From contig JAPLTG010000043.1 of assembly GCA_026398255.1 (NCBI GenBank), positions 1-53,308 of the forward strand: 53,308 nucleotides of DNA, given 5' to 3'. Under the pieces are notes generated by a model that was not told the DNA's origin, did no database searches, and worked only from the letters and a program-made list of their open reading frames with translations. A program made the position numbers and the translations under genes. Origin of the DNA: Verrucomicrobiota bacterium (GTDB taxonomy: Bacteria; Verrucomicrobiota; Verrucomicrobiia; Chthoniobacterales; Terrimicrobiaceae). This document shows, piece after piece, positions 16,920 through 45,317 of the stretch (position 1 is the stretch's first letter; each line of letters begins with the position of its first letter).

Positions 16920-16986
16920 GATTTTTTCTCCGCCTCATAGTTTCCAAGCACAGGCTCGCTGGGGCGAGTGATGATGGATTTTGGAC

Positions 16987-17280
16987 TCATTCAGCATTTT
17001 TCTGCGCTTCGAAATTTCCGAGAACTTCTCCAATGACAACGGTGTAATTGAGGTTTCCATGGTCGAGGTCCACATCGGGCAGGAAATCCTCATCCAGCGA
17101 GCCGAGCAGGGCTGGCACATCAGATTCTTTCCATCCCGCGTCTTTCAGCAAAATCACCGTCCCGGCCACAGTGCCATTAGCCAAATAGTGGAGATCAACA
17201 GCTGCAACATCCCGACCCTCACGCTGTGCCAGAAAGCGCTCGGATGAGGTCGTGCGGAGAGTTCGTTTCCAAGAAAGCAT
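16987..17280 (-). CDS. Conserved 97-residue protein (left copy)
   Basis: A small acidic protein starting [17 protein letters not shown] with a later [19 protein letters not shown]. It is nearly identical in sequence to the product of 28790-29083, differing mainly at the ends. In both places it lies immediately upstream of an SNF2 helicase. No known domain is recognised. Its strict pairing with unrelated restriction modules makes it a candidate regulator or adaptor of the helicase; that is inference. Fic lies 8 bp upstream here, and DUF4236 directly upstream in the other copy. Confidence 0.75.
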   Translation of the reverse strand: MLSWKRTLRTTSSERFLAQREGRDVAAVDLHYLANGTVAGTVILLKDAGWKESDVPALLGSLDEDFLPDVDLDHGNLNYTVVIGEVLGNFEAQKNAE

Positions 17281-17288
17281 AAAAGTTT

Positions 17289-18025
17289 TCAGTTTTCAGG
17301 TGTGAGTCGAGTTTTCCAAATCTCAACCAGCGGAGACCAGTTGGCGTGGTCGGCTGCTTCCAGGGCAGAGAAATATTTTTGCCTCGCAGTTTCAGATTCG
17401 GGAGCAAGCTCCAACTCGGGGAGGTCAAGACGTCGGAGAAGTTCAAGAAGGAATAGGCGAATCGTCCGGCCATTGAAGTCAGCGAATGGATGAATGGTCA
17501 AAAACCGCCCTTCAGCAAACGCTAGGAACTCCAAGGTGAGATCACCTATCCGAGAACTGGCCTCCTGCCACCGAGCGGCAAGATCAGCTCCATAGTCGCG
17601 CATGAGCACAGGCACCTGTGGTGGTTTGGGCGGCTCAAGGTTACCGACACGCACATCAATCGTTCGCCATTTTCCTGCCCAGTCGGGAACGATATCCACA
17701 GAAATGAGGCGATGAATCTCGGTGCAAAGATTTTCATCAAGGGGGTGGTTCGAGAAATCCCCACGATAGATGCGGGATTCAACGACGAGAACTTGCTCGG
17801 CCAGGAGTGGCGCTACCTCGGAGTAGGAAAGGATGCCCCGCGTTGTTTCAATAAAACGGGTGGCTCGATCCGGTCGAGTATCCCTTGAAGGAGGCTGATC
17901 TCCACTGGCTCTCTCTCGAAGGCCATGCTCTGGGCCACATCGCGAGGAATCGCCTTCCAGCGACGGAGAAGTTTCTCTTCGGCTGGAAGCTGCCTCCATC
18001 TCTCGATGTTTTCGATCCAAGTCAT
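17289..18025 (-). CDS. Fic-domain protein, frameshifted or overlapping antitoxin-toxin pair
   Basis: The C-terminal ~190 residues are a Fic domain with the catalytic loop HPFADFNGRTIR, the histidine loop that transfers AMP or a similar group to a hydroxyl. The natural-looking N-terminus (MTWIENIERWRQLPAEEKL, from 18025) is in a different frame and stops at 17813; the Fic frame upstream of there reads as non-protein. No ATG, GTG or TTG start is visible in the Fic frame after the overlap. So either a one-base indel near 17850 broke one gene, or a 70-residue upstream protein overlaps the toxin. The upstream frame holds SMAFERE, near the (S/T)xxxE(G/N) inhibitory motif of Fic antitoxins. The gene is absent from the duplicated cassette on the right. 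Confidence 0.7.
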
Positions 18026-18057
18026 CGGTCATAGGTTAGAGCGCGGAGAGCAAAGGT

Positions 18058-18306
18058 TCAAGCGGGGAAGAGCCATCGACTGACGGCGAGTGTGGCAGGG
18101 ATGGCAACTAGGAGAACAAGGCAACCAGCACCGGATTTGCGATAGCCGATACCAGTGCCGGGAATGCTGAAGCTGGTGTATTTGCGGCCTCGGGAGGTGG
18201 TGCCAACACGGAATCCACGGCCACCCACGGAATAGCCAACGCCAGACTTACTCAGATTCACTCGGAACGGTCCGAGGTTCACGGATTTTCGATAGTAGAA
18301 GCCCAT
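18058..18306 (-). CDS. DUF4236 protein (left copy)
   Basis: The 82-residue protein starts MGFYYRKSVNLGPFRVNL and has the DUF4236 glycine-rich core (SKSGVGYSVGGRGFRVG, then SFSIPGTGIGYR), followed by a hydrophobic C-terminal segment (CLVLLVAIPATLAVSRW) that probably spans or docks to the membrane. Function of the family is unknown. Its first ~70 residues are identical to those of 28548-28793, and the ~95 bp before it are also conserved in both copies. Confidence 0.88.
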   Translation of the reverse strand: MGFYYRKSVNLGPFRVNLSKSGVGYSVGGRGFRVGTTSRGRKYTSFSIPGTGIGYRKSGAGCLVLLVAIPATLAVSRWLFPA

Positions 18307-18401
18307 CAGATCTGAGGGAAAGTGGTGTGGAGGGAAGCATCGGGCATGGCGGCTAGTTCAGCTTTTTCGATGGCTGTGGGCAATTGGAAACCCAAAGAAT
18401 T

Positions 18402-18686
18402 TCACTCGTCATCTGCGCACAAAATCGGAGGCTTTGTCGCATAGGGGTTGTTTGGACTGATCGGGCTATAGGGGCTGCCGTATTGGCTGTAGGGATTGTT
18501 GATACTTGTCGGCGAATACGGACTGCCATACCTGCCGTAGGGGTTTGAGACGGAATCGGGATCGTAGGGATTCGCGCTGAGTCTTCCAAGATACTCGCCA
18601 TCGTCATCGCAAGACTGCGCGAAGGCGCTTGGGCATTGAATCGGCAAGGCAATGGCTGCCGCGAGAAGGATGAGTTTTGATTTCAT
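18402..18686 (-). CDS. Secreted NPY-repeat protein, short form
   Basis: The 94-residue product has a Sec signal peptide (MKSKLILLAAAIALPIQC..AFA, cleavage after AFAQ-like) and then short repeats built on NPYGRYGSPYSP and NNPYSQYGSPYSP, ending CADDE. It equals the 158-residue protein at 27976-28452 with about 64 residues missing between two internal copies of G-(E/Q)-YLGRLSANP, a deletion expected from recombination between those repeats. It is exported, so it does not obviously belong with cytoplasmic restriction enzymes. Its leader is A/C-rich (AACCAACC just before ATG). Function unknown. Confidence 0.82.
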   Translation of the reverse strand: MKSKLILLAAAIALPIQCPSAFAQSCDDDGEYLGRLSANPYDPDSVSNPYGRYGSPYSPTSINNPYSQYGSPYSPISPNNPYATKPPILCADDE

Positions 18687-18752
18687 GGTTGGTTATAGGT
18701 TTTAGATTTCGAGTTTTTGAGAGGGTATTTTTTTATCTGTCCGAGGAGGCGC

Positions 18753-19217
18753 TCATTTCGGACCTTTCCATGAGCCACGCTTGCCAGGATCGATCGGGAG
18801 CATCATCTGAATCGGCGGAGGTCTGTCGTCGGCATCCTCTTCAAGGAATACCAAGCGCTCAGGGGCTGACTCTGGATTGAGAAAGAGCGAAATCTCCCAA
18901 CCCTCGCGTGGCAGAAGCGTTTCGCCGAAACGGATGCTGTGTGGGGTCACCTCGATTTCGATTTCATCGTGGTGCCGCTTGTCCTTGCTGTAGGCGAGCA
19001 AGAGTTGGCGCAGTTTAAAATGCCGTAAAAAGGACACGCCGGGTCTCTGGACTGCTGCCTCGCACTGCGCCACCTCGCCATTACAGCTGACTGACAGCAA
19101 GCTGCCCTCGGCATGGAGTCGCACAAGACCTTCGCGTTTTTTCTTAGGTGCGGAGCTATCCGTTGTAACGATGGCAAGAAGGCGGACCAGACGGGCGCGG
19201 TGGACTAGAAATTTCAT
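18753..19217 (-). CDS. Hypothetical protein, possibly sliding-clamp-like
   Basis: The 154-residue protein starts MKFLVHRARLVRLL. The pattern LLSVSCNGEVAQCEAAVQRPG followed by FKLRQLLLAYS and IEIEVTPHSIRFG resembles one beta-clamp-type domain, in which strands alternate with a helix that lines DNA. The similarity is by eye only and weak. It starts 4 bp after the preceding gene and so is part of the operon. The right-hand cassette has no copy, so it counts as variable cargo. Confidence 0.6.
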   Translation of the reverse strand: MKFLVHRARLVRLLAIVTTDSSAPKKKREGLVRLHAEGSLLSVSCNGEVAQCEAAVQRPGVSFLRHFKLRQLLLAYSKDKRHHDEIEIEVTPHSIRFGETLLPREGWEISLFLNPESAPERLVFLEEDADDRPPPIQMMLPIDPGKRGSWKGPK

Positions 19218-19221
19218 AAGC

Positions 19222-19524
19222 TCAATCGTAGATAAGATCAGTGTTCATCTGGTTTGGCGGATACCAGACGATGCCGTGTTCGGATTTGAGAATATGTTCC
19301 ATCCGGGACCAGACATCGTGGCATCGACCCATTCCGGCGACCATCGACTCCCTTTCGGCACGACGCTCGACCTCGCGCACGATCGGGCGAATCCGGGGAA
19401 TGTCTTCGATGGGATCGTGGAGTTCGGCATGTGGGTTGCGAGCTCGCTGGGTGAGCTTGGCTTTTTCAATGCGACGCAGAAGTTCCTGATCGCGGATCGG
19501 ATTCCCGAAGACATCGGTTTTCAT
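19222..19524 (-). CDS. Hypothetical 100-residue protein
   Basis: Starts MKTDVFGNPIRDQELLRRIE and is highly charged and helical, with HDPIEDIPRIRPIVREVERR in the middle. There is no signal peptide, membrane segment or catalytic motif. It begins 4 bp after the stop of the 38-residue leader peptide and is followed after 4 bp by the next gene, so the three form a tightly packed start of the left operon. I do not recognise the family. Confidence 0.6.
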   Translation of the reverse strand: MKTDVFGNPIRDQELLRRIEKAKLTQRARNPHAELHDPIEDIPRIRPIVREVERRAERESMVAGMGRCHDVWSRMEHILKSEHGIVWYPPNQMNTDLIYD

Positions 19525-19528
19525 GGGA

Positions 19529-19645
19529 TCAGAACCGAAATTCGAGTTGCGATTGGGAAGACCATTGGGAGCGCTTCTGCGGGTTGATTCGATGGGCCAA
19601 TGACGACAGATAACGAAGGATTTGAGTGATCATTTCACCCGGCAT
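19529..19645 (-). CDS. Short conserved leader peptide, copy 1
   Basis: A 38-codon frame starts ATG-CCG-GGT-GAA-ATG, giving MPGEMITQILRYL and ending LEFRF. Its first codons fall inside the conserved 70-bp leader repeat. The right-hand copy encodes MSGEMITKLLSLL and the third copy MITKNPLPTL, so the frame as well as the DNA is kept. Translation may begin at the second ATG (MIT). Conservation of a short arginine-rich peptide just upstream of both operons suggests a leader peptide or a small protein; either is inference. Confidence 0.5.
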   Translation of the reverse strand: MPGEMITQILRYLSSLAHRINPQKRSQWSSQSQLEFRF

Positions 19646-19696
19646 CCTAAAACAGCTGGTAGGACATTTACGGGGGGACCAGTTTTTTTCCTGAAA
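19627..19696 (-). repeat. 70-bp leader repeat, copy 1 (inverted relative to copy 2)
   Basis: This is about 90% identical to the reverse complement of 25246-25315. It runs (minus strand) from a purine tract through GGTCCCCCCGTAAATG and TCCTACCAGCTG to the peptide start and GAAATGATCAC. It marks the left operon start and one end of the inverted duplication. Confidence 0.85.
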
Positions 19697-19942
19697 ATAA
19701 TCCCAATGGCATTTTCACGGAGAAAATCCTGCGTTATTTTACCTTCAAATTGCACCATGACCGTTAGAACTCCTATTCCCTTTGAATCCAGAACCAGCCT
19801 GCGAATCCCACTGGTTTCGGTCCGCATCCGACCGGGTCATCGAAAAGGGCAGACCCCTTGCCGTAAAATTGCCAAGCAACTGCCAAACACGAAAAAACGG
19901 GCATTTTTTATTTCCCCCCGCAACTTGCTGTTGCAGAGTAAC
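19697..19942. other. Intergenic stretch before attL
   Basis: About 250 bp between the leader repeat and attL. I see no convincing gene; a 65-codon minus-strand frame (19630-19827) overlaps the leader repeat and was not accepted. A small GCAAC/GTTGC hairpin lies close to attL. Confidence 0.5.
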
Positions 19943-19985
19943 TGCGCCCCCCGGGACTCGAACCCGGAACCAATTGATTAAGAGT
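19943..19985. repeat. attL: partial tRNA-Lys copy
   Basis: Starts TGCGCCCCCCGGGACTCGAA and ends GATTAAGAGT. It is identical over 43 bp to 45246-45288. It contains the acceptor 3' strand, T arm, variable loop and anticodon-arm 3' half, but the tRNA 5' half is absent, so it is not a functional tRNA. Confidence 0.92.
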
Positions 19986-20028: not shown

Positions 20029-21420
20029 ATGAACACAAAAAACAGAGGTAAAACCAAATTAACCAATGAAAAACATTCGCTTAATGCTGGGGCTGTATCC
20101 GGTCATAGCGAATCGAAGGGGCGCGGAAAAAGTGCAACGCAAGTGCAACTCAAGAAAGCCAGAGGCATTGGCAAGAACTCCGCGAACTATTGGATTACGC
20201 GCTTGGTAAAGAAGAAAAATTCCTTGGGAATTGAATCTCCCCATTGGTCAATCCAACTACAGAGCGGCGGCATGAGGCGTGGTTTTTCGACAGGAACGGG
20301 CAACAAGGAAGCCGCTGCGAAGGTTGCTGCCGGAATATACAATGACATTCTTGTGATGGGGTGGGATGCCGCCATTGCCAAGCACCGCCCTACGAATGAA
20401 CTCGAACAAGATCTTCCTGCACCCGTGGCTTCTGTGGGCGATTGGATCACTGCCGCACGGAGAGTTTCTGAGGCGAACGAATCCACCTTCACCTCCTACG
20501 CCCGCGCTCTACGAAAAATTGTTGCAGACATATTCGCCATGGATCGTTCTACAAAACGCTTTGGGCCGCGCAAGGGAGGGGCGGCGGATTACCGATCCAA
20601 GATCGACGCTACGAGTCTTGCTGTTCTGACCCTGCCTGCCGTGCAGAAGTGGCGCTTGGAATATGTGAAGCGGGCTAAGAACCCTGCAGAGGAACGCTCG
20701 CGCATGACCTCCTGCAACTCCACGATCCGGCAGGCGCGGAGCTTGTTTGCCGGGAAAATTCTCAAATTCTTGCCCGAACTTCGACTCCCCGATCCGATTC
20801 CTTTCCATGCGGTCGAGTTTTTTCCGCGCCAGTCCGCAAAATACTTCTCGCGGATCGACGCGAAGACCTTGTTGCAGGAGGCGCACCGGGAGCTTGCGAA
20901 GCGCGACTCTCCGGCATTCCTTGCCATGCTTCTCGCCTTGTCGGCGGGTCTGAGGAAGGGCGAGATTGACTCCCTGCAATGGCATCAGGTGGACTTCAGT
21001 CGCCAACTGATCCGTGTAGAATCGACCGATGCAGCGAGCCTCAAGACTGCGGACTCCCGCGATGAGGTGGCGATTGATGCGAATACGATTTCGCTTCTTC
21101 GGAGCTTTCACGCAAAAAAGACTGGGCCGTTCGTGATTGATGGAGAGGGCGCGGAAGGCGGGCCGAAGAAGTGGGGACAGAACTACCGGGCCGGGGCGGT
21201 CTTTGATCGTCTCACCGCTTGGCTCCGCAAGCACGGCGTGACCGCGAGGAAGCCTCTTCACGAGCTTCGCAAGGAACTTGGCGCGCTAGTTACAGCGGAG
21301 CACGGTATCTATGCTGCATCTCGGGTATTGAGGCATAGCAATGTTGCTACCACCGCCGCCCACTATTCGGATTTAAAAACACGGCCGGTAGTAAATGTGG
21401 GGGGATGGATTTTGGATTAA
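20029..21420 (+). CDS. int: Tyrosine recombinase / integrase
   Basis: The 463-residue protein is a phage-type integrase that exchanges strands at att sites. In the C-terminal half are the first arginine in LSAGLRKGEIDSLQW, the H-x2-R box in HELRKELGA, and RHSNVATTAAHYSDL carrying the second histidine and the nucleophilic tyrosine. The N-terminal ~130 residues are basic and look like the arm-binding domain, followed by a core-binding SAM-like domain. It starts 43 bp inside attL. Its coding region includes a 20-bp repeat (20131-20150) that also occurs 54 bp from attR and may be an arm site. It is probably responsible for the tRNA-Lys insertion. Confidence 0.93.
   Translation: MNTKNRGKTKLTNEKHSLNAGAVSGHSESKGRGKSATQVQLKKARGIGKNSANYWITRLVKKKNSLGIESPHWSIQLQSGGMRRGFSTGTGNKEAAAKVAAGIYNDILVMGWDAAIAKHRPTNELEQDLPAPVASVGDWITAARRVSEANESTFTSYARALRKIVADIFAMDRSTKRFGPRKGGAADYRSKIDATSLAVLTLPAVQKWRLEYVKRAKNPAEERSRMTSCNSTIRQARSLFAGKILKFLPELRLPDPIPFHAVEFFPRQSAKYFSRIDAKTLLQEAHRELAKRDSPAFLAMLLALSAGLRKGEIDSLQWHQVDFSRQLIRVESTDAASLKTADSRDEVAIDANTISLLRSFHAKKTGPFVIDGEGAEGGPKKWGQNYRAGAVFDRLTAWLRKHGVTARKPLHELRKELGALVTAEHGIYAASRVLRHSNVATTAAHYSDLKTRPVVNVGGWILD
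20131..20150 (+). repeat. Putative integrase arm-type site, left
   Basis: AGTGCAACGCAAGTGCAACT, itself two AGTGCAAC units 3 bp apart, lies 146 bp inside attL. The identical 20 bp occur at 45173-45192 near attR in the same orientation. Paired short repeats flanking the core sites are typical of arm-binding sites; the role is inference. Confidence 0.5.
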
Positions 21421-21643: not shown

Positions 21644-21838
21644 ATGAACCATACAAAACAACAATCAGCACAGTTGCTTTCCAGGCGGCATCTCGCCTCT
21701 CGGTGGGCAGTATCCAAAGAAACACTCAAACGCCGCGAGAGGGCTGGCAAATTACCATTCCTCAAGATCGGGAGAGACATCAGATATCGGCTTGCCGTTA
21801 TTGAACAGATCGAAGCTCAAGCAGAGGTAGCGCTATGA
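21644..21838 (+). CDS. AlpA-like / excisionase-type HTH protein
   Basis: The 64-residue protein has a MerR/AlpA-type winged helix: LLSRRHLASRWAVSKETLKRRE, then KLPFLKIGRDIRYRLAVIEQ. Such proteins activate or direct excision of integrated elements or regulate the downstream operon. Its stop overlaps the RepA-like start (ATGA), so they are co-translated. It follows the integrase by 223 bp containing repeated operator-like sites. The leader is A/C-rich (ACAAAACCAAAACC) with no Shine-Dalgarno. Confidence 0.85.
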   Translation: MNHTKQQSAQLLSRRHLASRWAVSKETLKRRERAGKLPFLKIGRDIRYRLAVIEQIEAQAEVAL

Positions 21839-23151
21839 TTAACGATAAAAATATCTCATCGGAGCAAATTGCCAGCGCTTTGAAGCAAGCGAAGAACCAA
21901 ATCAAAGTGGAGCAAAAGGCATGGGTAAAGAGCCAAGCTGCGGAAAGAGAAATTCAATCCGCACTTCAAACGCCACCACCTGAGGCCAGAAGCGTTCTGT
22001 CGTATAAGGCTGAGTTTCCTGATCCTGAGAAAACATTACTTGGTGATCGATGGCTATGCGTTGGCCAAGGAGCTCTCGCGGTCGGCCCTACCGGAATTGG
22101 CAAGTCAACCTCTTCAATGCAGCAGGATATCTGTTGGTCAATAGGCAGAGAGGCCTTTGGGATCAAACCGAGAAAGCCACTGCGTATTCTTGTCATTCAA
22201 GCTGAGAATGACAGTGGTGACCTCCACGAGATGGTCAAAGGAATCATGCTAGGCATGGGGCTATCAGAGGAGGAAGAAAGGCTATGCGGTCAAAATCTGT
22301 TCATAGCTTGTGAGCAGGAAAGAACGGGGCTGGGTTTCATTCATGGGGTGCTTCGCCCACTGATTGAAAAACATCTTCCAGAAATTGTTCGTATCGATCC
22401 GCTTATGGCTTTTGCTGGTTGTGATCTGACGCAATCTGCTGAAGCGGCCAAGTTCCTACGGCATGGAATCAACCCAATTCTCAAAAAGTTCAATTGTGCT
22501 GGAATCCTCGTTCACCATACGCCGAAGAACAATAACCGCGACACTTCCCAATACAGAGCCTCCGACTGGGCTTATGCAGGCGCTGGTAGCGCGGATATAA
22601 TAAATTGGGCGAGGGCGATGCTTGTCATCGACCCCTGCAAGGATGATGGAAAATTCTGCTTCATTGCCGCCAAACGAGGGAGCCGTGTTGGATGGAAAAA
22701 TGATTCGGGCGATGTTTTAATCAAGCGGTGGTTTAAGCACTCCTCAGGAAGCATCTGCTGGGTTGAAGCTGATTCAGAGAGTCCTCGCGCTGTTCACACC
22801 GAGGATAATCTCTACGACTTGATGCCTTTTGGGGTATGTATGCCCAAAGATGCATTTATAGAGACAGCTAAAGCGGTAGCCGGAATTCCCAAGTCTCGGG
22901 CAAATAGTCTATTATCAAAACTATTATTCAATGGAAGGCTTGTGGAAGATAAACTTCCAAGAAGCGGGACTAATCCTCAGAAGGTTATTAGACGTCCTGA
23001 AACGGCTCCGCTTCCAAACGCAATTGTGGATAAAACTCCCAAGAAGCAAACCAAGCTGGTTCGACGCAAAGCCATCGTTGTTGATGTTACTGCCAGAGAT
23101 AGCGAAGAAGCATCTTCCTATATCGAGCTTATTGAAGATAAAGCCGTTTAA
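21835..23151 (+). CDS. RepA-like AAA ATPase (replicative helicase type)
   Basis: The 438-residue protein has Walker A GPTGIGKS at residues 84-91, a strand ending ILVIQAEND (Walker B-like, with the acidic pair typical of RSF1010 RepA/RecA-fold proteins), IVRIDPLMAFAGCDL, and ILVHHTPKNN with the sensor histidine pattern. This group forms hexameric helicases that unwind plasmid or island DNA. The C-terminal ~130 residues are basic and may carry a winged helix. With the following primase it forms a replication module. Codon use is more AT-rich than the flanking defence genes. Confidence 0.85.
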   Translation: MINDKNISSEQIASALKQAKNQIKVEQKAWVKSQAAEREIQSALQTPPPEARSVLSYKAEFPDPEKTLLGDRWLCVGQGALAVGPTGIGKSTSSMQQDICWSIGREAFGIKPRKPLRILVIQAENDSGDLHEMVKGIMLGMGLSEEEERLCGQNLFIACEQERTGLGFIHGVLRPLIEKHLPEIVRIDPLMAFAGCDLTQSAEAAKFLRHGINPILKKFNCAGILVHHTPKNNNRDTSQYRASDWAYAGAGSADIINWARAMLVIDPCKDDGKFCFIAAKRGSRVGWKNDSGDVLIKRWFKHSSGSICWVEADSESPRAVHTEDNLYDLMPFGVCMPKDAFIETAKAVAGIPKSRANSLLSKLLFNGRLVEDKLPRSGTNPQKVIRRPETAPLPNAIVDKTPKKQTKLVRRKAIVVDVTARDSEEASSYIELIEDKAV

Positions 23152-24729: not shown

Positions 24730-25227
24730 GGAAGGCCATTCTTTCTCGCCAAGGGCCAGAGCGCCTCGCCGCTCGATCGTGCCAAGCACACGATCCTCAA
24801 ACACCGCCGCGTGGATGGCGCGGCTCCGTTCCTGTATCATCCGCACGATATTTTTGTGCGCTCGGGCAAGCGGTTCCTGAACACCTCCTCGATCCGGCTC
24901 ATGCCCGCCGCACGGGCCGCTGGTAAATGGGGTGAATACTTTCCGCTCATCGCGAGCGTATATGACAATGTGTTCGCCTCGAATTTCTACCGCGATGTGT
25001 TCTTTGCTTGGTTCAAACGCTTCTACGAGTCTGCCGAGAAGGGTGATCCCACCCCAGGGCAAGCACTGGCCCTTGTCGGTCCGATTCACTGCTACAAGTC
25101 TTGGACGATTCACAAGATACTCAAGCCTGCCATGGGCGGTTTCGCTGACTTCTCGGCTATGGCTGCGGGGGAGGCTGGCATCATGAATCAAATAACCAGT
25201 GTTTATTTGCATGAGGTCGCCGTGTAG
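24730..25227 (+). pseudogene. Relic of a phage/plasmid primase-helicase
   Basis: An open frame without a plausible start runs PFFLAKGQSASPLDRAK, then YHPHDIFVRSGKRFLN, then ALALVGPIHCYKSWTIHKI. This is the region before and around Walker A of SF3/primase-helicase proteins, where the consensus G-x4-G-K-S would be expected; here GPIHCYKS has tyrosine in place of the glycine before K. The reading frame ends ~45 residues later without the rest of the ATPase. Loss of both ends and of the P-loop glycine indicates a dead fragment. It lies between the replication module and the defence operon. Confidence 0.6.
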
Positions 25228-25245
25228 AGGCCCCTCTAAATTTTT

Positions 25246-25315
25246 TTCAGAAAAAAAACTGATCCCCCCGTAAATGTCCTACCAACTGTTTTAGGATGTC
25301 GGGCGAAATGATCAC
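25246..25315 (+). repeat. 70-bp leader repeat, copy 2
   Basis: About 90% identical to the reverse complement of 19627-19696. It runs through ACTGATCCCCCCGTAAATG and TCCTACCAACTG to GAAATGATCACC. It includes the start of the leader peptide and marks the beginning of the right-hand defence operon. Confidence 0.85.
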
Positions 25316-25526
25316 CAAACTTCTATCCCTGCTAACTGAAATCGTCCGTCATCCAATCAACGCCATGCGCCCTCTGGGCCGCTTCCAGAAACGCTTCGAG
25401 TGGCAGAGTGAGTTTTTGTTTTTCCCTATGACGCGAGCCTGCGGTGAACCCGATTTGATCGAAAGCAACCGCTCCGCTTCAAACCTAGCTGCGATTCCTT
25501 CCGCCAGCACGGGCTCAACGAACTAA
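25296..25526 (+). CDS. Short conserved leader peptide, copy 2
   Basis: A 76-codon frame starting MSGEMITKLLSLLTEIVRH, with an internal GRFQKRFEWQSEFLFF. The first ~45 residues correspond to the left leader peptide (MPGEMITQILRYL...LEFRF); the tail is less protein-like. Start may be the second ATG (MIT). It is the only gene-like feature between the primase-helicase relic and the 136-residue gene. Confidence 0.45.
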   Translation: MSGEMITKLLSLLTEIVRHPINAMRPLGRFQKRFEWQSEFLFFPMTRACGEPDLIESNRSASNLAAIPSASTGSTN

Positions 25527-25605
25527 ACAAAAACATCCGAATGGAAATCCGCTGAAAACCAACCCTCACACCAACCAGTAAAACCAAACCCAACCACACA
25601 AAGCC

Positions 25606-26016
25606 ATGTTAAGAGACCAATGGAAATTCCGCTACACGGCCAGGCAACTTGCCGAAGCGGCTCAAACGAAAATCGAATTCCACAAAGGACGCCTCGAATT
25701 TTGGGAGGCGCGTCGCAAGGAGGTCATCGGCCAGATCAAAGCCGATGGCATTGAGGTGAACGAGAAATCCGTGCTGTTGCAATATGCCTCTCCGAAGATG
25801 CGGGATTTCCAAGAGGGTGGCGACATCATGATCCGCAACGACCTTAGAAAACGCCTTGCGGAATCCTACGAGAAGCTGGCCTACCACACCGGTCGCCGGG
25901 ACACCTTCGACGGCTGGCAGCAAGTCCTGGGAGCCAATCCGGACGACAAGATCGAGCTGGATATCGATGACTGGCTCTTTTTCTTCGGACGCGACACCAG
26001 CAAAGACGGACAATGA
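25606..26016 (+). CDS. Hypothetical 136-residue helical protein
   Basis: Starts MLRDQWKFRYTARQLAEAAQ and is mostly charged helix (KIEFHKGRLEFWEARRKEVI), with a C-terminal acidic end (DDKIELDIDDWLFFFGRD). It shows coiled-coil character and no catalytic motif. The stop overlaps the start of the deacetylase-like gene by 4 bp (ATGA), implying a functional pair. The leader is A/C-rich (AACCAGTAAAACCAAACCC). I do not recognise the family. Confidence 0.7.
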   Translation: MLRDQWKFRYTARQLAEAAQTKIEFHKGRLEFWEARRKEVIGQIKADGIEVNEKSVLLQYASPKMRDFQEGGDIMIRNDLRKRLAESYEKLAYHTGRRDTFDGWQQVLGANPDDKIELDIDDWLFFFGRDTSKDGQ

Positions 26017-26903
26017 TTCAGAACCATCCCATCCGCGCTGCCTTCAGTGAGTCCTATTTTTCCAACACCAGCACGCCCTCGATGCGGAAACTTACGCTGG
26101 TGGCGCGTCGGGCTGCGGAGGCGGGGTTTGTGGAGCTTGTCGAGCCGCAACCGGTAGGCCGAGCCGAACTGGATCAAATCCACGATCCGGCTTATGTCCA
26201 CAGCATCCTCAGCGGCGAAGGGCCGTTGAGCAAATGTGCCTTCGGCTATTGGAGCGAGGACTATCGAGATGGCGTCTTGGCGATCAATGGAGGCAATCTT
26301 CTTGCCGCCCGCTTGGCGCTAGAGGATGGCATCGCTGCGAATGTGGCCCAGGGCTTTCACCACGCCGCTCCGCCCAATGGCGGAGGCTACTGCACCTTCA
26401 ACGGACTCGCCCTCGTTGCGTCCTGCCATCCAGATATCGAGGTCTTCGTCCTCGATTGCGATGAACACGGGGGTGACGGAACGGCTGAATTTACGAAAAC
26501 TCTTCCCAATCTTTTCAACTTCTCGATCTGCGGCACTGGCATGGCCGCCTTCGAGGGTCCTCAATCCATTGTCCGCCGAGTGCCCCCGAGGGATGAAAAG
26601 CAAGCACACCAATACATGCAGGAAGCTCTGGACCTGATTGGCGAAAGACGACCGGGGCTTGTGATCTACCAAGCCGGCATGGACCCGCACCTCGACGACC
26701 CGCTCTCCCGCTCTAAAATGTCAGGAGAGTTTCTTGCAGCTCGCGATGAGTTCGTGATGAAAACCCTTTTGATCGAACTCGGCATTCCGTTCTTTTTTGT
26801 TCTGGCGGGCGGCTATCAAGAGCCCATGGAGAAAAAACTCGTCCCGCTCCATGTCCAGACCTTCGAGATCGCCTCCCGCATCAATCATCAGCGCCGGAAA
26901 TAA
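26013..26903 (+). CDS. Histone-deacetylase-superfamily enzyme
   Basis: The 296-residue protein has the arginase/deacetylase fold motifs: HDPAYVHSI near 57-65, tandem histidines H116-H117 in GFHHAAPPNGGGYCTFN, zinc ligands D150 and H152 in VLDCDEHGGDGT, third ligand D224 in YQAGMDPHLDDPL, and the catalytic tyrosine Y268 in LAGGY. All catalytic residues are present, so it is probably an active zinc amidohydrolase acting on an acetyl-lysine, acylpolyamine or similar amide. It is coupled to the 136-residue gene and followed by a lipoprotein. Its presence as cargo in a defence operon is unusual; the substrate is unknown. Confidence 0.88.
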   Translation: MIQNHPIRAAFSESYFSNTSTPSMRKLTLVARRAAEAGFVELVEPQPVGRAELDQIHDPAYVHSILSGEGPLSKCAFGYWSEDYRDGVLAINGGNLLAARLALEDGIAANVAQGFHHAAPPNGGGYCTFNGLALVASCHPDIEVFVLDCDEHGGDGTAEFTKTLPNLFNFSICGTGMAAFEGPQSIVRRVPPRDEKQAHQYMQEALDLIGERRPGLVIYQAGMDPHLDDPLSRSKMSGEFLAARDEFVMKTLLIELGIPFFFVLAGGYQEPMEKKLVPLHVQTFEIASRINHQRRK

Positions 26904-26910
26904 AATAAAT

Positions 26911-26966
26911 CTGCTCCCCCAGTATTTGTCCCACCAACTCTGAAAGTATTACCACATCATGATCAC
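26911..26966 (+). repeat. Degenerate third copy of the leader repeat
   Basis: CTGCTCCCCCAGTATTTG, then TCCCACCAACT, then ATGATCAC match 25259-25315 with nearly the same length (56 versus 57 bp). The sequence is more diverged, but the ATGATCACNAAA end at the peptide start is kept. Confidence 0.6.
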
Positions 26967-27891
26967 AAAAAATCCACTCCCAACCCTCATCTCGATTCGT
27001 TCAATACTCCGCCGGAACCAAGCTGGAGGCCGATTCGCGCATCAAATGAAGCTGTCGTTTCTTCGGATAAAACCATCGGATTTCCCGTGCAAGGTTTCCC
27101 GCCCGCTGATTCTCGGCTGCGTGCTGTCTCTTTCTGCGTGCACCTCGGTGAAATTCGATGTCGCGGAGGGCGACTCCGCGAAGGTCGCCTATGTGCAGGG
27201 CAATCCCGTTGTGCCTTCCAAAAACAAGACCACGGTGTTCGTTTCATTCAGTCCAGAGGCATTCCCAGCTAACCAACGCGGCTGTCTGAATGTCACACTC
27301 GCGAACTCCTCCAAGTCGCTGCTGAATTTCGGCCCCGAAAACATCACGGTTTCATGTGACGGCAAGGCTCTGAAGACTTTCACCTACGAGACGCTCAAAC
27401 GCGAAATCCAGCAGAGGGCTGCTGCCGCCGCGATTGCGATGGGAATGGCTGGGGCCATGCAGGCCGCTGCCGCTTCGATGCCAGCCACCACGACCACTTA
27501 CGGGACTTCCTACGGGTATGGCAATTTCTCCGGCACGGCGAATCCCGCCTACGGCTACAACCCCTGGCGATATTCCGGGAATTTCAATTCATTCGGCACC
27601 TATTCCGCGACCAGCACGACTTACAATCCAGCGGCCACGGTTTCCGCACAGGCGGCGGTCAACGCCAACACGCTTCAGCAAATGAATATGATCACCGCCA
27701 ATCGCAACGCTTCACTCGCCGACCTCGAATCCATGCTTCGGACGACGACGATCCCGCCCGGCGCGGCATACGGTGGCAACATTGTTTTCAAGCTCCCACC
27801 CACACCGGGAAAAATACCAAAGGAAATTCTGGTTACGGTGCGGACACCCGTGGACGAGCATCAAATCCGGGTCGCTTATCTCAAACGCTGA
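26959..27891 (+). CDS. Predicted lipoprotein of unknown function
   Basis: The 310-codon frame starts within leader-repeat copy 3 (MITKNPLPTL...), but the mature-protein logic suggests a start at 27046 (MKLSFLRIKPSDF), followed by a lipobox LSACTS. The middle has alanine-rich helix (RAAAAAIAMGMAGAMQAAAA) and a Gly/Tyr/Ser/Thr-rich low-complexity stretch; the end is a compact strand-rich domain (VFKLPPTPGKIPKEILVTV). It would be anchored in a membrane facing the periplasm. It lies between the deacetylase-like gene and the NPY-repeat gene, and is absent from the left arm. Confidence 0.72.
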   Translation: MITKNPLPTLISIRSILRRNQAGGRFAHQMKLSFLRIKPSDFPCKVSRPLILGCVLSLSACTSVKFDVAEGDSAKVAYVQGNPVVPSKNKTTVFVSFSPEAFPANQRGCLNVTLANSSKSLLNFGPENITVSCDGKALKTFTYETLKREIQQRAAAAAIAMGMAGAMQAAAASMPATTTTYGTSYGYGNFSGTANPAYGYNPWRYSGNFNSFGTYSATSTTYNPAATVSAQAAVNANTLQQMNMITANRNASLADLESMLRTTTIPPGAAYGGNIVFKLPPTPGKIPKEILVTVRTPVDEHQIRVAYLKR

Positions 27892-27975
27892 TATCCCATG
27901 GGAAACGCTCTCTCCGCTCCCAAAAGCGCACATCTCCTTTTCCAACCTCGAAAAGCCAACCAACCACACCAAATC

Positions 27976-28452
27976 ATGAAATCAAAACTCATCCTTCTCG
28001 CGGCAGCCATTACCTTGCCGATTCAATGCCCAAGCGCGTTCGCGCAGTCATGCGACGATGATGGCGAGTATTTGGGAAGACTCAGCGCGAATCCGTTTCT
28101 CACCGATTCCACGGCCAACAAATTCGGTCCATTCGGTAATCCCTATGCGAGCGACAGCATCGAGAATCCTTACGGGCCATACGGGAATCCTTACTCGGCA
28201 ACCAGCGTGTCGAACCCATACAGCACGGACGCGCCAAAAATCATCGCCGCCGATGGCCAGTATCTCGGTCGCCTGAGCGCGAATCCCTACGATCCCGATT
28301 CCGTCTCAAACCCCTATGGCAGGTATGGAAGTCCGTATTCGCCGACAAGCATCAACAATCCCTACAGCCAATACGGAAGCCCCTACAGCCCGATCAGTCC
28401 AAAGAATCCCTATGCGACAAAGCCTCCGATTTTGTGCGCAGATGACGAGTAA
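27976..28452 (+). CDS. Secreted NPY-repeat protein, long form
   Basis: The 158-residue protein has a signal peptide identical in layout to the left copy and repeats of the NPYG-x-YGNPYS and GSPYSP type, with two internal YLGRLSANP segments (after ~33 and ~97 residues). The left copy lacks the section between them. Start is MKSKLILL at 27976; the open frame upstream is A/C-rich leader. No enzymatic motif. Repeats of this style occur in exported proteins of many bacteria, with unknown function. Confidence 0.85.
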   Translation: MKSKLILLAAAITLPIQCPSAFAQSCDDDGEYLGRLSANPFLTDSTANKFGPFGNPYASDSIENPYGPYGNPYSATSVSNPYSTDAPKIIAADGQYLGRLSANPYDPDSVSNPYGRYGSPYSPTSINNPYSQYGSPYSPISPKNPYATKPPILCADDE

Positions 28453-28547
28453 AATTGTTTGGGTTTCAAATTGCCCACAGCCATCGAAAAAGCTGAACTA
28501 ACCGTTGTGCCTGCTGTTTCCTTCCACGCCACTTTTCCTCAGATCTG

Positions 28548-28793
28548 ATGGGCTTCTACTACCGAAAATCTGTGAACCTCGGCCCGTTCCGAGTGAATCT
28601 GAGTAAGTCTGGCGTTGGCTATTCAGTAGGTGGTCGTGGATTTCGTGTTGGCACCACCTCGCGAGGTCGCAAATACACCAGTTTCAGCATCCCCGGCACA
28701 GGTATCGGCTATCGCAAATCCGGTGCTGGTTGCCTTGTGCTCCTGGCAGGCATCCCCGCTGCTTTGGCCCTTTCACGCCTTCTTACATCATGA
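28548..28793 (+). CDS. DUF4236 protein (right copy)
   Basis: The 81-residue protein is identical to the left copy through the glycine-rich core and differs only in the C-terminal hydrophobic tail (LLAGIPAALALSRLL). The stop overlaps the start of the 97-residue homologue (ATGA), whereas in the left arm a Fic gene lies between these two. This shows either gain of Fic on the left or its loss on the right. Confidence 0.9.
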   Translation: MGFYYRKSVNLGPFRVNLSKSGVGYSVGGRGFRVGTTSRGRKYTSFSIPGTGIGYRKSGAGCLVLLAGIPAALALSRLLTS

Positions 28794-29083
28794 ATCTTTC
28801 TTGGAAACGCACACTCCGCACGGCCTCATCCGAGCGCTTTCTCGCAGAGCGCGAGGGCAAGGATGTTGCCGCAGTCGATCTCCACTACCTCGCCAGTGGC
28901 ACCGTTGCTGGAACCGTGATTTTGCTTAAGGATGCGGGATGGAAGGAATCCGATGTGCCTGCACTTCTCGGTTCGTTGGACGAGGATTTCCTGCCTGATG
29001 TGGACCTCGATCACGGGAATCTCAACTACACCGTGGTAATCGGAGAGGTGCTTGGGAACTACGAGGCGGAGAAATCAAAATGA
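28790..29083 (+). CDS. Conserved 97-residue protein (right copy)
   Basis: Starts [18 protein letters not shown] and matches the left copy over nearly its whole length ([19 protein letters not shown] shared). The stop overlaps the helicase start by 4 bp. The overlap chain DUF4236, this gene, helicase suggests stoichiometric production. Function unknown; constant association with an SNF2 helicase is the only clue. Confidence 0.78.
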
Positions 29084-32000
29084 AACTTTCATTCATCCAA
29101 GCGGGCATGAGTCTTGTTGGCGTTGAGCCGACGCAGATTGTTTCGGTGATTGCTGCTGTGAAGATTTCTGACGCGGCACTCCAGATTGTTTACCGTTTGC
29201 CTGATGGATCAATAAAAGAGCGCCTTCTTGCGGATGCCGATTGCGAATCGATTTCGGAGGCTGTTGCTGCGCATCCGTGGCGCTTTGATGGGGACGGGGA
29301 AGCCTTCAAGTTGGCTGTGGAGGCAAAGCGTATTGATCTCGCGTTCCTTTTCGATCCGATGATGGCCGTTCACACATCGAATGTTGACCCACTGCCTCAC
29401 CAGATTACGGCGGTTTATGAATCGATGCTGCCTCGCCAGCCCCTGCGCTTCGTCCTTGCCGACGATCCCGGCGCAGGCAAGACGATCATGGCGGGCCTTT
29501 ACATTCGCGAGCTCATCATGAGGGCCGACGCCAGACGGATTCTTGTGGTAGCGCCTGGTAGCCTTGTCGAGCAATGGCGCGACGAGCTGTATGAAAAGTT
29601 CGGTCTGCAGTTCCATGTCTTTTCCAACGCACTGGAAGCTGCTTCCCCGAGTGGAAATGCTTTCGATGACCATGATCACCTGATTGTTCGCCTTGATCAG
29701 ATGGCTCGTAACGAGGAGTTGCAGGAAAAACTCCTCTCCACCAGTTGGGATCTTGTTGTCTTTGACGAGGCACACAAACTCGCCGCGCATTTCTACGGAT
29801 CGAAGGTTGAGAAAACCGGCCGTTTTCAATTTGCGGAAAAAATGGGAGCCCGCACTCGCCACCTCCTCCTCATGTCTGCCACGCCACACAATGGCAAGGA
29901 GGAGGATTTCCAGTTGTTCCTCTCGCTTCTCGACTCAGACCGCTTTTACGGAAAATTCCGCGATGGCGTTCACAAAGTCGATGCCTCCGACCTCATGCGC
30001 CGCATGGTTAAGGAAGAGCTTCTCAAGTTCGACGGCACTCCGCTTTTTCCCGAGCGCCGCGCCTATACTCTCAACTATACGCTTTCGGATATTGAAGCCG
30101 CGCTCTATGAGGCTGTGACCTCTTATGTGAAGGAGGAAATGGGCAAAGCTGAGGCACTGGAAGGTTCCCGCAAAGGTTCGGTAGGGTTTGCTCTCACTGC
30201 TCTTCAGCGCCGCTTGGCATCAAGCCCGGAGGCGATTTTTCAATCTCTTCGCCGCCGTAAAGAACGCTTGGAGCGCAAGCTTCGTGAAGAAAACATCATG
30301 GCCCGTGGCCGCGAGGCTGCAAAATCGGCTATTCCAGATGACGACGACGATCTCACTGCCGAGGAGCAGGAGGAACTCGAAGAGGAACTCATCGACGACG
30401 CCACGACTGCGCAGACCAAGGCTGAGCTGGAAGCCGAGATTCTCATTCTCAAAAAACTGGAGCAACAAGCAGGTGGCGTTGTCGCATCCGGCTTGGATCG
30501 AAAGTGGGATGAACTCTCCAAGATTCTCCAAAACGACTCCCGCATGCGGGACGCAGGCGGCAGGCTCCGCAAGCTCATCATCTTCACTGAGCACCGGGAT
30601 ACTCTGAACTATCTGGAACAAAAGATGGGCGGTGTGCTTGGCACCCCAGGCGCGATCACCACCATCCATGGCGGCACCCAGCGCGACGAGCGCCGCAAGC
30701 GGCAGGCTCTCTTCCGTTCCGATCCCGAGGTTCGCATCCTTATTGCCACGGATGCCGCTGGCGAAGGTGTGAACCTTCAAAACGCGAACCTCATGGTGAA
30801 CTACGACCTCCCATGGAATCCGAATCGCTTGGAGCAGCGCTTCGGCCGCATTCATCGCATCGGCCAGCAGGAGGTTTGCCACTTGTGGAATCTCGTCGCC
30901 AAGGAAACCCGAGAGGGCGAGGTCTACCACCGACTCCTAACCAAGTTGGAAACGATCAGCACGGCTTTCAAGGGGCGCGTTTTCGACATCCTTGGCGAGG
31001 TCTTTGAGGAGAAAAGCCTCAAGCAACTCCTCCTCGACGCCATCATTTACAACGACCGCCCTGATATCCGCGAGCGGCTGAATCAACGCATCGATGCCGC
31101 TTTCGACGCCGATCACCTCAAGTCCCTCTTGAATAGGACGGCCTTGGCCCAAGAGACCATGAATCCTGAACGCCTCTTTGCCGTGAAGGAGCAGATGGAG
31201 CAGGTCGAGGCTCGCAGGCTTCAGCCATTTTTCGTTCGTTCTTTTTTCACCAAAGCCTTCGACGACCTTGGGGGCTCTTTGCTCCGTCGTGAAAGCGGGC
31301 GCTTCGAGATTACCCATGTGCCCGCCCTCATTCGTGAGCGCGACCGTATCATCTCAGGACGCAACCGTCGGGAACTCGCTCCGGTATTGAAGCGCTACGA
31401 GCGCGTCTGCTTCACGAAGGACGCCGTGCGCCCACTGGAACAGGCAGACGCACCATTTGCCCAGCTCCTTCATCCCGGACACCCGCTCATGCTTGCGGTC
31501 ACCGATATTGTTTTGGAGCGCCATACAAATCTCCTGCGGCAAGGCACGGTGTTGATCGACCCTGCCGATTCTGGAGACGAGCCCTCTCTGCTCTTTCTCA
31601 TCACGCATGAGATCAAAGGTGGCGATGGCATCGTGCTCTCGAAGCGCCTGCAATTCGTCCGAGTCACTCCCGATGGCCTCGCCCACTTTGCCGGGTGGGC
31701 ACCCCATCTCGATCTGGAGCCGCTTGATTCAATCGATCTGCATTTCATCCAGCCCATCCTTTCCGAGCCGTGGATATCGTCTGGCCAGGAGCAACGGGCA
31801 CTGGCCCTCGCCGCATCCACACTTGTTCCCGAGCACTACAAGGAAGTCGCCGAGCGCCGCATCGCCCATGTGGACAAAACCCTCACCGCTGTCCATGAGC
31901 GCCTCACCAAAGAGATCGCCTTCTGGTCGGATCGCTGGTTGAAGCTGAAAGATGATTTGGAAGCGGGCAAAGATGTTCGCCTGAATCTCGACAATGCCCA

Positions 32001-32571
32001 GCGCACCATCAACGACCTCGAAGGCCGTTTGGAGTCCCGCAAAAAAGAACTCCAATCCATGCGCCATGTTTCCAACGGCACTCCGATTGTTCTTGGTGGT
32101 GCTCTCATTGTGCCGAGCGGGCTGCTCCGCAAGATGCGCGGTGAGTCGCAAGCCCCCGATGCATTCTGCGCCGATGCGGCAGCCCGCAGTCGCATCGAAC
32201 AGCTCGCCATGGAGGCCGTGCGCCGATCCGAAGAGGCCCGAGGCTGCAGAGTCGTCGATGTCTCCGCGCAGAAATGCGGCTGGGATATCACCTCCTACCT
32301 TCCTGCGCTGGACGGTAAACAACCCCTCGCACGGCACATCGAGGTGAAAGGCCGGGCAAAGGGAGCCGACACCATCACTGTGACCCGCAACGAAATCCTC
32401 TACGCCCTCAACCAAGCCGACAAATTCCACCTCGCCATCGTGCTGGTGGATGAAAACGAGCAAATAGACGGCCCCCACTTCGTGGCCAATCCCTTTGATT
32501 CCGAGCCGGGCTGGGGCGTTTCTTCGATCAACTACAACCTCGGCGACCTTCTTGCCCGTGCGACCCTATGA
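29080..32571 (+). CDS. SNF2 helicase with C-terminal DUF3883 domain
   Basis: The 1163-residue protein has Walker A DDPGAGKT (128-135), DEAH in VVFDEAHKL near 229, SATP in [11 protein letters not shown], a long charged coiled insert (residues ~400-460), and motif [13 protein letters not shown]. The C-terminal ~80 residues ([20 protein letters not shown]) match DUF3883, a predicted PD-(D/E)xK-like module. It resembles the SNF2/DUF3883 helicases of DISARM-type and DUF1156/DUF499 defence loci and probably drives DNA translocation for the methylase and ATPase downstream. Its start overlaps the 97-residue gene. Confidence 0.9.
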
Positions 32572-32666
32572 TTTCCTACAAACCGAAATATAAACAAAAA
32601 ATCTGTTTATGTTTGATTGACGAGAGGGCTTCTTGACCTGAAAATTCAGAAATAACCTTCCTTTTG

Positions 32667-33953
32667 ATGTTATCTTCTTTCTTCATTCAAAACTTCCGCT
32701 CGATTCTGGAACTCCGCTTGGATTTCACCTACGGGGAGGGCAAGGCGCCGAATGGCTATCTGGATCAAGAAACCATGCCGTTTCTGGATGCTCCTCAAAA
32801 AAAGCGCCTCGTGCCCTGCACGGCCTTTTTCGGTGCCAATGCATCGGGCAAAACCAATGTCTTCTTGGCTTTCGGTGCCCTGAATCGCCTCGTGCGGGAG
32901 GGCGGACCGCTGGCCGACATTTTCGAGCCGAATTTGATCAACCCCAAGTTCTCCTCATCGACATTCGCTGTCGAGTTTCTCGTTGGCGAGGATTGCTACG
33001 AATACTCGATCACCCTCGATGCAAACGAGATTCTTGAGGAGTCCCTTCGGAAAAACACGAAGCCGCTTTTTCAAATCCAGTCCCTGAAAGCCGAGTTCTC
33101 GCGGCAAATCCTCTCCGCCACCTACTCCCAGGAAAAGCTTTCGGACATCCTGCGCGTCGAGTGCTCCGACGGCGAGGGCCGCCAGACCAAGCCCTTCCTC
33201 CACCGGATCGGGCTTGGCTACTCCGGGCTGCACTCCGATACGAAGACCGCCTTTGCCTACCTCGTCAACCAGATCAGGTTTTTTACAAACACCATCTCCT
33301 TTCCCCTCCCGTTTTCCGTGAAAGTCCTTGCATCCGCTCTCGGTGGGGATGAGAAAGCTGCCTTAGCGGAAATCACCGATGTCGTTCGGCGGTTGGACAT
33401 CGACATTTCCTCCATTGATTTCGTGCAAAGGGAACTCGCCCCTCACGAGGACGCTCCGCATGGGATTACCATGCTCGACCATAGCACCGGAACCAAACAC
33501 GCCGTTCAGATCATCTCCACGCATCAGGATGTCGCTGGCAACCCCACTCTCTTCGACTTCCTTAAGCACGAGTCCGCAGGCACTCAGCGGCTTGCCGGGC
33601 TGGTCGGCTTGATTCTCTTCGCGCTCAAGACCGGCTCTGTCCTGCTCGTGGACGAGCTGGAGTGCTCCCTGCACCCCTTGCTCATGCGCGAGATCGTGAT
33701 GCTCTTCAAAAAACGCTCCCACAATCCCAAGGGAGCCCAGCTCATTTTCACGACCCACAACACAGACATCCTCGACGATTCCATCCTGCGCCTATCCGAG
33801 ATCGCCCTCGTGCGTAAAACCTCCGCCAATGGCACTCTCGTGCGCCGCTTGGTCGATGCCAAACGCGAGGGCGAGGACATCCGCAATGTCACCAACTTCC
33901 GCAAACAATACCTCGCCGGATTTTATGCTGGCATCCCGCACCCCGCTATCTGA
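32667..33953 (+). CDS. RloA-like AAA (SMC/OLD-type) ATPase
   Basis: The 428-residue protein has Walker A GANASGKT (56-63), the ABC-type signature region near STGTKHAVQI, Walker B VLLVDELECSLHP near 328, and a D-loop/H-loop THNTDILDD, the layout of AAA_15/21 ATPases of the RloA and AriA (PARIS) kind. I take the ATG at 32667 rather than a TTG one codon upstream. The stop overlaps the next ATG (TGATG). With the Toprim-like partner this is a two-gene phage-sensing unit inserted between the helicase and the methylase. Confidence 0.87.
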   Translation: MLSSFFIQNFRSILELRLDFTYGEGKAPNGYLDQETMPFLDAPQKKRLVPCTAFFGANASGKTNVFLAFGALNRLVREGGPLADIFEPNLINPKFSSSTFAVEFLVGEDCYEYSITLDANEILEESLRKNTKPLFQIQSLKAEFSRQILSATYSQEKLSDILRVECSDGEGRQTKPFLHRIGLGYSGLHSDTKTAFAYLVNQIRFFTNTISFPLPFSVKVLASALGGDEKAALAEITDVVRRLDIDISSIDFVQRELAPHEDAPHGITMLDHSTGTKHAVQIISTHQDVAGNPTLFDFLKHESAGTQRLAGLVGLILFALKTGSVLLVDELECSLHPLLMREIVMLFKKRSHNPKGAQLIFTTHNTDILDDSILRLSEIALVRKTSANGTLVRRLVDAKREGEDIRNVTNFRKQYLAGFYAGIPHPAI

Positions 33954-34615
33954 TGCCCATGCCCTGCACACGCCATTTGATCATTTGCGAAGGAGAGTCC
34001 GAGCGGGCCTACCTCCAGCGTTTGCAGGCGTTTTTCGATCAACAGCCCCTGCCCAGCGGCAACTTCGAGCCGCCCCTCCGGATATTCGCCCCGCCAAACG
34101 CCGTCGCTCAATCCGGCAAATTTTCTGCTCTCAAAAGGTGCTACAGCGATGTCCGCAGAGAGAACAAAAAAGTCACCATCCGCATCTGGGCCGACTTCGA
34201 CCTCTACCTCCGCAACGACCACGATTGCTCCACCCACTACCGGAGCAAGCCCGCCACCCTGCCCGACTTCCTTTTTTCCTTTCACAATTTTGAGGACTTC
34301 CTCGCCCTACACCTCGCAGACGAACCGTTTGACCGATGGCTTGAGTTTGGCCGGAGGGGACATTTCGAGACCCCATTCCATTCGCCCGATTACATGCGGG
34401 AGTTTGAAACCATTCTCCCCGGCTACCGCAAAGCGGGGCTGCCACCAGACTTCATCACTTGGCAATCCCTCGCTAACCTCAAACGCCGCCTGACACACCA
34501 ACCCATCCCCCGCTTGCACGATCTCGGCAGTATCGACAAGTTCGCGGATTTTCTCATCGCGGAAATCGAGCGAGCCTACCCAGACCGCACCGAATTTCAT
34601 CCTTCAACCTTATGA
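33953..34615 (+). CDS. RloB-like Toprim-family protein
   Basis: The 220-residue protein starts [20 protein letters not shown], where ICEGESE supplies the conserved Toprim glutamate; [14 protein letters not shown] carries the D-x-D pair, and [11 protein letters not shown] follows. This is the RloB / DUF4435-like layout found beside RloA-type ATPases. In related pairs the Toprim protein is the effector nuclease held by the ATPase. It overlaps both neighbours, so the cassette is translationally coupled. Distinguishing RloAB from PARIS needs a profile search. Confidence 0.78.
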
Positions 34616-37527: not shown

Positions 37528-37534
37528 CTCCACC

Positions 37535-37927
37535 ATGAAGCCTGAGACTTACTTTGACAGCGCATTGGGCGTCGATTTCGCGCCCTCTGGCAAGCCAACC
37601 CTTCTTTTCAAAGCCTGGTTGAGCCATGGCCCTGGAAGCGATGAGGATTTGGCATTCTATGTGGGGCCAAACGCCGAGCACTCGCATGATGTTTTATGGC
37701 TTGAGAGTGACTATTCTGAAGGTTTTTCAGCCATTGCATGGGCTCCGCAAGGAGTTTTGCCCGGCGAGGAGTTAAGTCGGATTTTGCTAACGACCTATTG
37801 GCAGCGCGAAAAAGAGGAAAACGAATCGGAGGAGCCGAACTTCACCGAAGTCCTAAAAGCAGAAGGCGCTGCATTATCGCCCAAACAAGTGAACGAGATG
37901 GCCAAGCAAATCTGGCCTGAATTTTAA
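37535..37927 (+). CDS. Hypothetical 130-residue protein between methylase and DUF499 ATPase
   Basis: Starts MKPETYFDSALGVDFAPSGK, 7 bp after the methylase stop (an upstream ATG inside the methylase gene is possible but less likely). It is acidic, with tryptophan-rich strands (LWLESDYSEGFSAIAWAP) and a helical end (LSPKQVNEMAKQIWP). Related loci often have a small DUF3780 gene here, but this does not look like DUF3780. It is probably a system-specific subunit; function unknown. Confidence 0.7.
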   Translation: MKPETYFDSALGVDFAPSGKPTLLFKAWLSHGPGSDEDLAFYVGPNAEHSHDVLWLESDYSEGFSAIAWAPQGVLPGEELSRILLTTYWQREKEENESEEPNFTEVLKAEGAALSPKQVNEMAKQIWPEF

Positions 37928-37939
37928 CGTAAAAATTAT

Positions 37940-44911: not shown

Positions 44912-45317
<406 letters not shown>

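Follow-up and report, generated by a model that had tools for sequence, protein, structure and literature searches.

This locus raises the question whether an enzyme of the histone deacetylase family, encoded on a mobile element among anti-phage genes, has a part in defence or is only carried along. We analyzed a stretch of 53,308 nt from an uncultured member of the Verrucomicrobia (the window), in which an initial annotation had described an active-looking deacetylase as cargo of a defence operon. Sirtuins, which depend on NAD, have a well-known part in phage defence. In the literature that we searched, there was no report of a zinc-dependent (HDAC-type) deacylase with such a part.

The gene sits in a 25.3 kb mobile island. 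We recognize this island as integrative because a tyrosine integrase gene (20029–21420, plus strand; Pfam Phage_integrase, E 2.3e-11) lies next to 43 bp (19943–19985, minus strand) that are identical to the 3' end of tRNA-Lys, mark the left end and form a direct repeat with 45246–45288, while the tRNA-Lys(CTT) gene itself, found with ARAGORN at 45245–45317 on the minus strand, provides the right attachment site. Like the integrase gene, the ATPase gene of the island core and all features given from 25240 to 40765 are on the plus strand. The island core also encodes an AAA_25 (RepA-like) ATPase (21835–23151; Pfam AAA_25, E 8.5e-18). An ORF at 24811–25227 has a Walker-like GPIHCYKS motif and is perhaps a truncated primase or helicase left from the element core. 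Further to the right lies a complete three-gene Hma system, consisting of the HmaA helicase (29080–32571, PADLOC HmaA 1978 bits), the HmaB methylase (34612–37527, PADLOC HmaB 1672 bits) and an HmaC-like DUF499 ATPase (37940–40765; Pfam DUF499, E 1.5e-28; NCBIfam DUF499_antiphage, E 2.9e-56). A pair of AbiLi/AAA_21 and AbiLii/RloB-like genes (32664–34615; PADLOC AbiLi E 9.4e-68, AbiLii E 9.9e-8) is nested between HmaA and HmaB within this operon, with ORFs that overlap or are closely spaced.

The deacylase ORF (26013–26903, 296 aa) begins with an ATG at 26013 that overlaps, as ATGA, with the stop codon of a 136-aa ORF at 25606–26016; translational coupling of the two genes had been proposed, and the overlap bears it out. 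Upstream of this pair is a leader repeat (25240–25324) with an inverted copy at 19617–19701 (85 nt, 88% complementary), and a second, partial leader repeat at 26918–26954 closes the unit. Next come a gene for a 310-aa lipoprotein-like protein (26959–27891), which is also found in the cassette of genome G003 (84% tblastn match in locus L114), and three shared cassette genes: an exported NPY-repeat protein (27985–28452), a DUF4236 protein (28548–28793; Pfam PF14020, E 4.9e-21; copy at 18058–18306) and a gene listed as a 117-aa ORF but counted here from its likely internal ATG (28784–29083; 92% identical copy at 16996–17277), which is coupled to HmaA. The initial annotation was thus right to place the deacylase between the leader repeat and the shared cassette genes. 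It does not, however, belong to a defence operon proper: HmaA starts 2.2 kb downstream, and the intervening genes and leader repeat rule out that the deacylase is part of the Hma operon. Neither the deacylase nor the 136-aa protein has a PADLOC match, and other relatives adjoin Zorya II, restriction-modification (RM) and other systems, so that they are not Hma components. The two genes form their own unit between two leader repeats, upstream of Hma. A scan for promoters and terminators gave no more than expected by chance.

A second cassette lies to the left of the island and has the opposite orientation. It starts with the same leader repeat and the NPY, DUF4236 and 117-aa genes, and continues with a helicase, a GmrSD-type protein and a type III restriction-like methylase plus helicase-endonuclease. 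Two outward-facing defence cassettes flank the integrase core, and imperfect inverted repeats (509, 279, 222 and 85 nt) connect 16897–19701 with 25240–29102. Since the left cassette lacks a deacylase, this gene is optional. A related genome (G075, contig 10) likewise has an NPY/DUF4236-headed cassette without deacylase, which carries type III-like restriction and methylase genes as well as Schlafen genes. That such deacylase-free cassettes also carry defence genes supports a shared front end with optional members.

The only Pfam match of the 296-aa protein is Hist_deacetyl (PF00850, E 2.5e-28, residues 27–281). In an alignment of ten subfamily members, H116, H117, D148, D150, H152, D155, D224 and Y268 are invariant, which confirms the catalytic residues named earlier (H116/H117, D150, H152, D224 and Y268) together with their numbering and adds D148 and D155. 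An AlphaFold model based on seven natural sequences (pLDDT 80.8, pTM 0.87; pLDDT low around residues 117–126) displays the arginase-deacetylase fold, and the paired histidines, the D-x-H and D ligands and the tyrosine of a classical zinc-dependent deacylase are all present. In comparison with three congeneric copies, dN/dS is about 0.10–0.11 for the deacylase and about 0.08–0.12 for the 136-aa gene. Both genes are under purifying selection, and these low values indicate that they are real, constrained genes. With the kept residues, dN/dS also rules out that the window deacylase is a pseudogene. Judged from the kept residues, the gene probably encodes a catalytically competent class IV-type zinc amidohydrolase.

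The closest matches in a PDB sequence search were VcHdaH (9gkv, E 2.8e-31) and chrHDAC11-1 (9rje), followed by Leptospira HDAC11 (9gz5); the first two belong to clade A of class IV, the third to clade B (PMC11532494, PMC13325672). A Foldseek search with the model likewise returned VcHdaH (9gky/9gkv, E 3e-17) first and 9gz5 next. Both comparisons, and a QGFHH rather than an RPP motif, point to class IV (HDAC11-like, cluster 5). The acetylpolyamine amidohydrolase ApaH (cluster 4, 9GKZ) and AcuC (cluster 2) share the superfamily and the catalytic residues. However, ApaH is a far weaker match (E 3.9e-8), the foot-pocket motif is not RPP, and there are no acu neighbours. The comparison with acetylpolyamine amidohydrolases and AcuC-type proteins that had been suggested thus groups the window enzyme with neither, and both identities are ruled out by score, motif and fold.

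In a maximum-likelihood tree of 55 proteins, the window protein groups, with support of 100/99, with members from two families of its order and, as outlying members, copies from a 158 kb viral contig, a conjugative Acinetobacter plasmid and Tahibacter. The housekeeping deacetylases of these bacteria fall outside this clade, as do class IV clades A and B, although the deep order of clades is unsure because several branches are long. The signature of the window clade is QGFHHA / CTFNGLA / DCDEHxGDGT / AGGYQ. On these sequence criteria, the window enzyme is related to class IV (HDAC11/VcHdaH) and forms a rare, separate lineage of its own.

VcHdaH from Vibrio cholerae (cluster 5b, clade A; 9GKV/9GKY) resembles the window enzyme in its fold, its H-H/D-x-H/D/Y active site, a bulky residue before HH, the GGY motif and a foot pocket, which held decanoic acid in VcHdaH. 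It is 27% identical over the model, however, and lies outside the window lineage in the tree, and the window enzyme differs by DCDEH, FNGL and the absence of Arg at the pocket end. The clade B enzymes (Leptospira liHDAC11, 9GZ5/9RJD, and human HDAC11) share with it the Phe before HH and AGGY, but are only 21% identical over the model; TPSM replaces their loop-1 HPFD, and liHDAC11 is found elsewhere in the tree, on a long branch. By published pocket rules, the gatekeeper of clade B is a Phe just before HH, which goes with long acyl chains, and an Arg/Glu pair closes or shortens the foot pocket of clade A (PMC11532494, PMC13325672). When these pocket rules are applied to the sequence alignment, the bulky F115 of QGFHH occupies the gatekeeper site, AGGY is kept, and G87 and I91 align where the Arg/Glu pair of clade A would be expected. 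Because the Phe gatekeeper and AGGY are kept and the Arg/Glu pair is absent, we infer that the window enzyme removes medium- or long-chain acyl groups; its entrance would be unusual. Long-chain deacylation would be expected from the pocket rules of PMC13325672 for clade B and the window enzyme alike.

The 136-aa partner is predicted to be mostly helical, with two long helices (pLDDT 77.5). It matches no known family, and Foldseek gave no match with E under 0.001. Orthologues with 67–72% identity lie upstream of the deacylase in G007, G009 and G011; in G007, a 122-aa ORF lies between the two genes. Across the order, the gene occurs in 5 of 213 genomes, and four of these five have the deacylase downstream (p 4e-5). 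In G048, it adjoins an NPY gene with no deacylase nearby. One further relative lies on a Bradyrhizobium plasmid among unnamed genes, and none was found in the viral contigs and phages searched. The association with the 136-aa gene thus recurs, as had been expected, but only 4 of the 13 deacylase loci have this partner. A metallophosphoesterase (calcineurin-like) gene is found in the upstream place of the 136-aa gene in at least two loci (L045 and L047; genomes G025 and G095), and a fragment of such a gene near L107 in G584; elsewhere, still other genes lie upstream. The 136-aa protein may adapt or regulate the deacylase.

The deacylase lineage is present in 13 of 213 genomes of the order. Full-length members score about 490–514 bits and fragments 216–274, and no score of the next lineage exceeds 220. 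The fragment in G010 was placed by its identity; this copy looks frameshifted, possibly by a sequencing error. A set of 387 genomes spread over the phylum contained no other member at comparable scores. One gene order is shared by G007, G009 and G011, in which the leader is followed by a 221-aa Tat-signal-like protein, a 135-aa protein and the deacylase, while the genes downstream of the deacylase differ: a DUF1016 nuclease with Fic, a Schlafen AlbA_2 gene, and an AbiL-like ATPase with RloB. Leader-repeat copies adjoin the deacylase loci L052, L054, L058 and L049. In the second family, the deacylase of G075 adjoins a Zorya II system (ZorA2 E 2.6e-111, ZorB2 E 4e-88, HNH gene) plus a Fic gene; in G095 and G064 it adjoins type I and in G584 type III RM. 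G587 has a WYL regulator and AddAB-like genes beside the deacylase. The recurrence next to different defence systems thus spans two families of the order.

In G019, a second, different Hist_deacetyl lineage (L113, 7496–8991, 31% identical) lies near NPY-repeat and Schlafen AlbA_2 genes and has an ATGA overlap with an upstream 214-aa ORF. G000 has a chromosomal deacetylase of its own (contig 42; L057, 8411–10296), which overlaps in the same way (ATGA) with an upstream gene that looks GNAT-like by eye.

We counted known or candidate defence-type genes within about 6 kb of each deacylase, with loci classified by hand. Such genes are found at 9 of the 13 subfamily loci (window, G002, G007, G009, G011, G064, G075, G095, G584), compared with 1 of 12 control loci from other deacetylase lineages of the same phylum (Fisher p 0.003). 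They belong to Hma, AbiL-like, Zorya II, type I and III RM, DUF1016, Schlafen and Fic types. Most neighbours of the control genes are core genes, and a cytosine methylase is the one clear exception; a few other PADLOC matches there (among them a kinase-type family) might bring the control count to two or three and p to 0.011 or 0.034. The comparison is conservative, since the control stretches add up to 140 kb, and the twelve subfamily loci other than that of the window to 100 kb. No defence gene lies within about 6 kb in G025, G010 and G587, and none was identified at the truncated locus L051 (G006). Because related genomes within a family do not count as independent samples and the loci, many of them on short contigs, were classified by hand, the association is good but not final evidence. 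It agrees with the link to defence put forward in the initial annotation, which had named as evidence to the contrary a set of homologues mainly in metabolic operons, with no tie to defence or 136-aa genes; this is not the pattern we see. An NPY gene near the deacylase also occurs in G002, G010, G584 and G587. The co-occurrence of NPY and deacylase is strong across the order (p 4e-9), but partly phylogenetic, since it loses significance when family f1 is taken by itself (p 0.11).

The main rival reading is passive hitchhiking: a metabolic or protein-quality deacylase would travel on islands that collect both it and defence genes. We regard this as rather unlikely, though it has observations in its favor. 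Core genes surround the other deacetylase lineages of the phylum, no defence genes are seen at L045, L049 and L108, and the gammaproteobacterial relatives, at about 40% identity, lie beside hemN- and fnr-like genes (Tahibacter) or have another partner, on a plasmid. VcHdaH, too, has no reported defence context or link (PMC11532494). The excess of defence genes over the control loci speaks against hitchhiking, and so does the repeated vicinity of NPY and DUF4236 genes, which also head defence systems without deacylase. WYL regulators are a class known to control defence loci; at L108, such a regulator lies directly upstream of NPY and deacylase, which likewise speaks against a mere passenger. 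As to the gammaproteobacterial loci themselves, the lineage enzyme is preceded by a conserved 317–349-aa protein both on the Acinetobacter plasmid (L061, 7041–8870) and in Tahibacter (L010, 6887–8810); these proteins belong to no known family and are 40% identical to each other.

A stronger claim would be that the 136-aa protein and the deacylase are a stand-alone two-gene anti-phage module parallel to Hma, with deacylation as effector or as release of a block. The separate unit between leader repeats, the ATGA overlap, the purifying selection and the co-occurrence of the two genes would fit, but the pair is kept at only 4 of 13 loci, neither protein was matched in PADLOC, and the literature searched gave no precedent among zinc deacylases, so that we consider this improbable. 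A still smaller chance, slight in our estimation, is that the enzyme began as a phage enzyme for host takeover or counter-defence and was captured by the island later. The copy on the 158 kb viral contig is 46% identical and lies at the base of the subfamily, and more distant enzymes are known from Rhodococcus phage E3 (gp202) and Microbacterium phage Magritte. Nevertheless, the patterns used picked out a single viral contig, the phage copy lacks the 136-aa partner, and transfer could have gone in either direction. On this viral contig (L074, 2226–7745), the deacylase lies between two RfaE-like nucleotidyltransferase genes, with a UV-endonuclease-like gene and a sigma factor nearby.

The reading that we favor, and hold somewhat more probable than its alternatives together, is an accessory class IV-type deacylase that, with its helical partner, belongs to the leader part of mobile defence cassettes and acts on an acyl modification. 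The deacylase would be co-translated with the 136-aa protein as a two-gene accessory cassette, here in the leader part of a cassette on the tRNA-Lys island with Hma and AbiL-like genes. The enzyme would cleave medium- or long-chain acyl groups off an amine, with the 136-aa protein as putative adaptor or regulator; instead of being a core part of Hma, it would tune an acyl modification of host or phage. We describe it as a class IV-type deacylase associated with defence cassettes, most likely an accessory gene, and its recurrence beside different anti-phage systems in sister species suggests a putative, so far unrecognised accessory role.

In its boldest form, which we hold to be a long shot, the finding would amount to a new module of immunity or immunity control: a zinc deacylase and a helical partner as exchangeable front-end gene of many defence cassettes, deacylating a protein or small molecule (fatty or other acyl) during infection, while a relative encoded by a phage would target this modification as well. 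Two recent papers leave open what bacterial class IV enzymes act on in nature (PMC11532494, PMC13325672). A lineage that is tied to defence cassettes and also present in a phage contig would give this question a testable biological setting.
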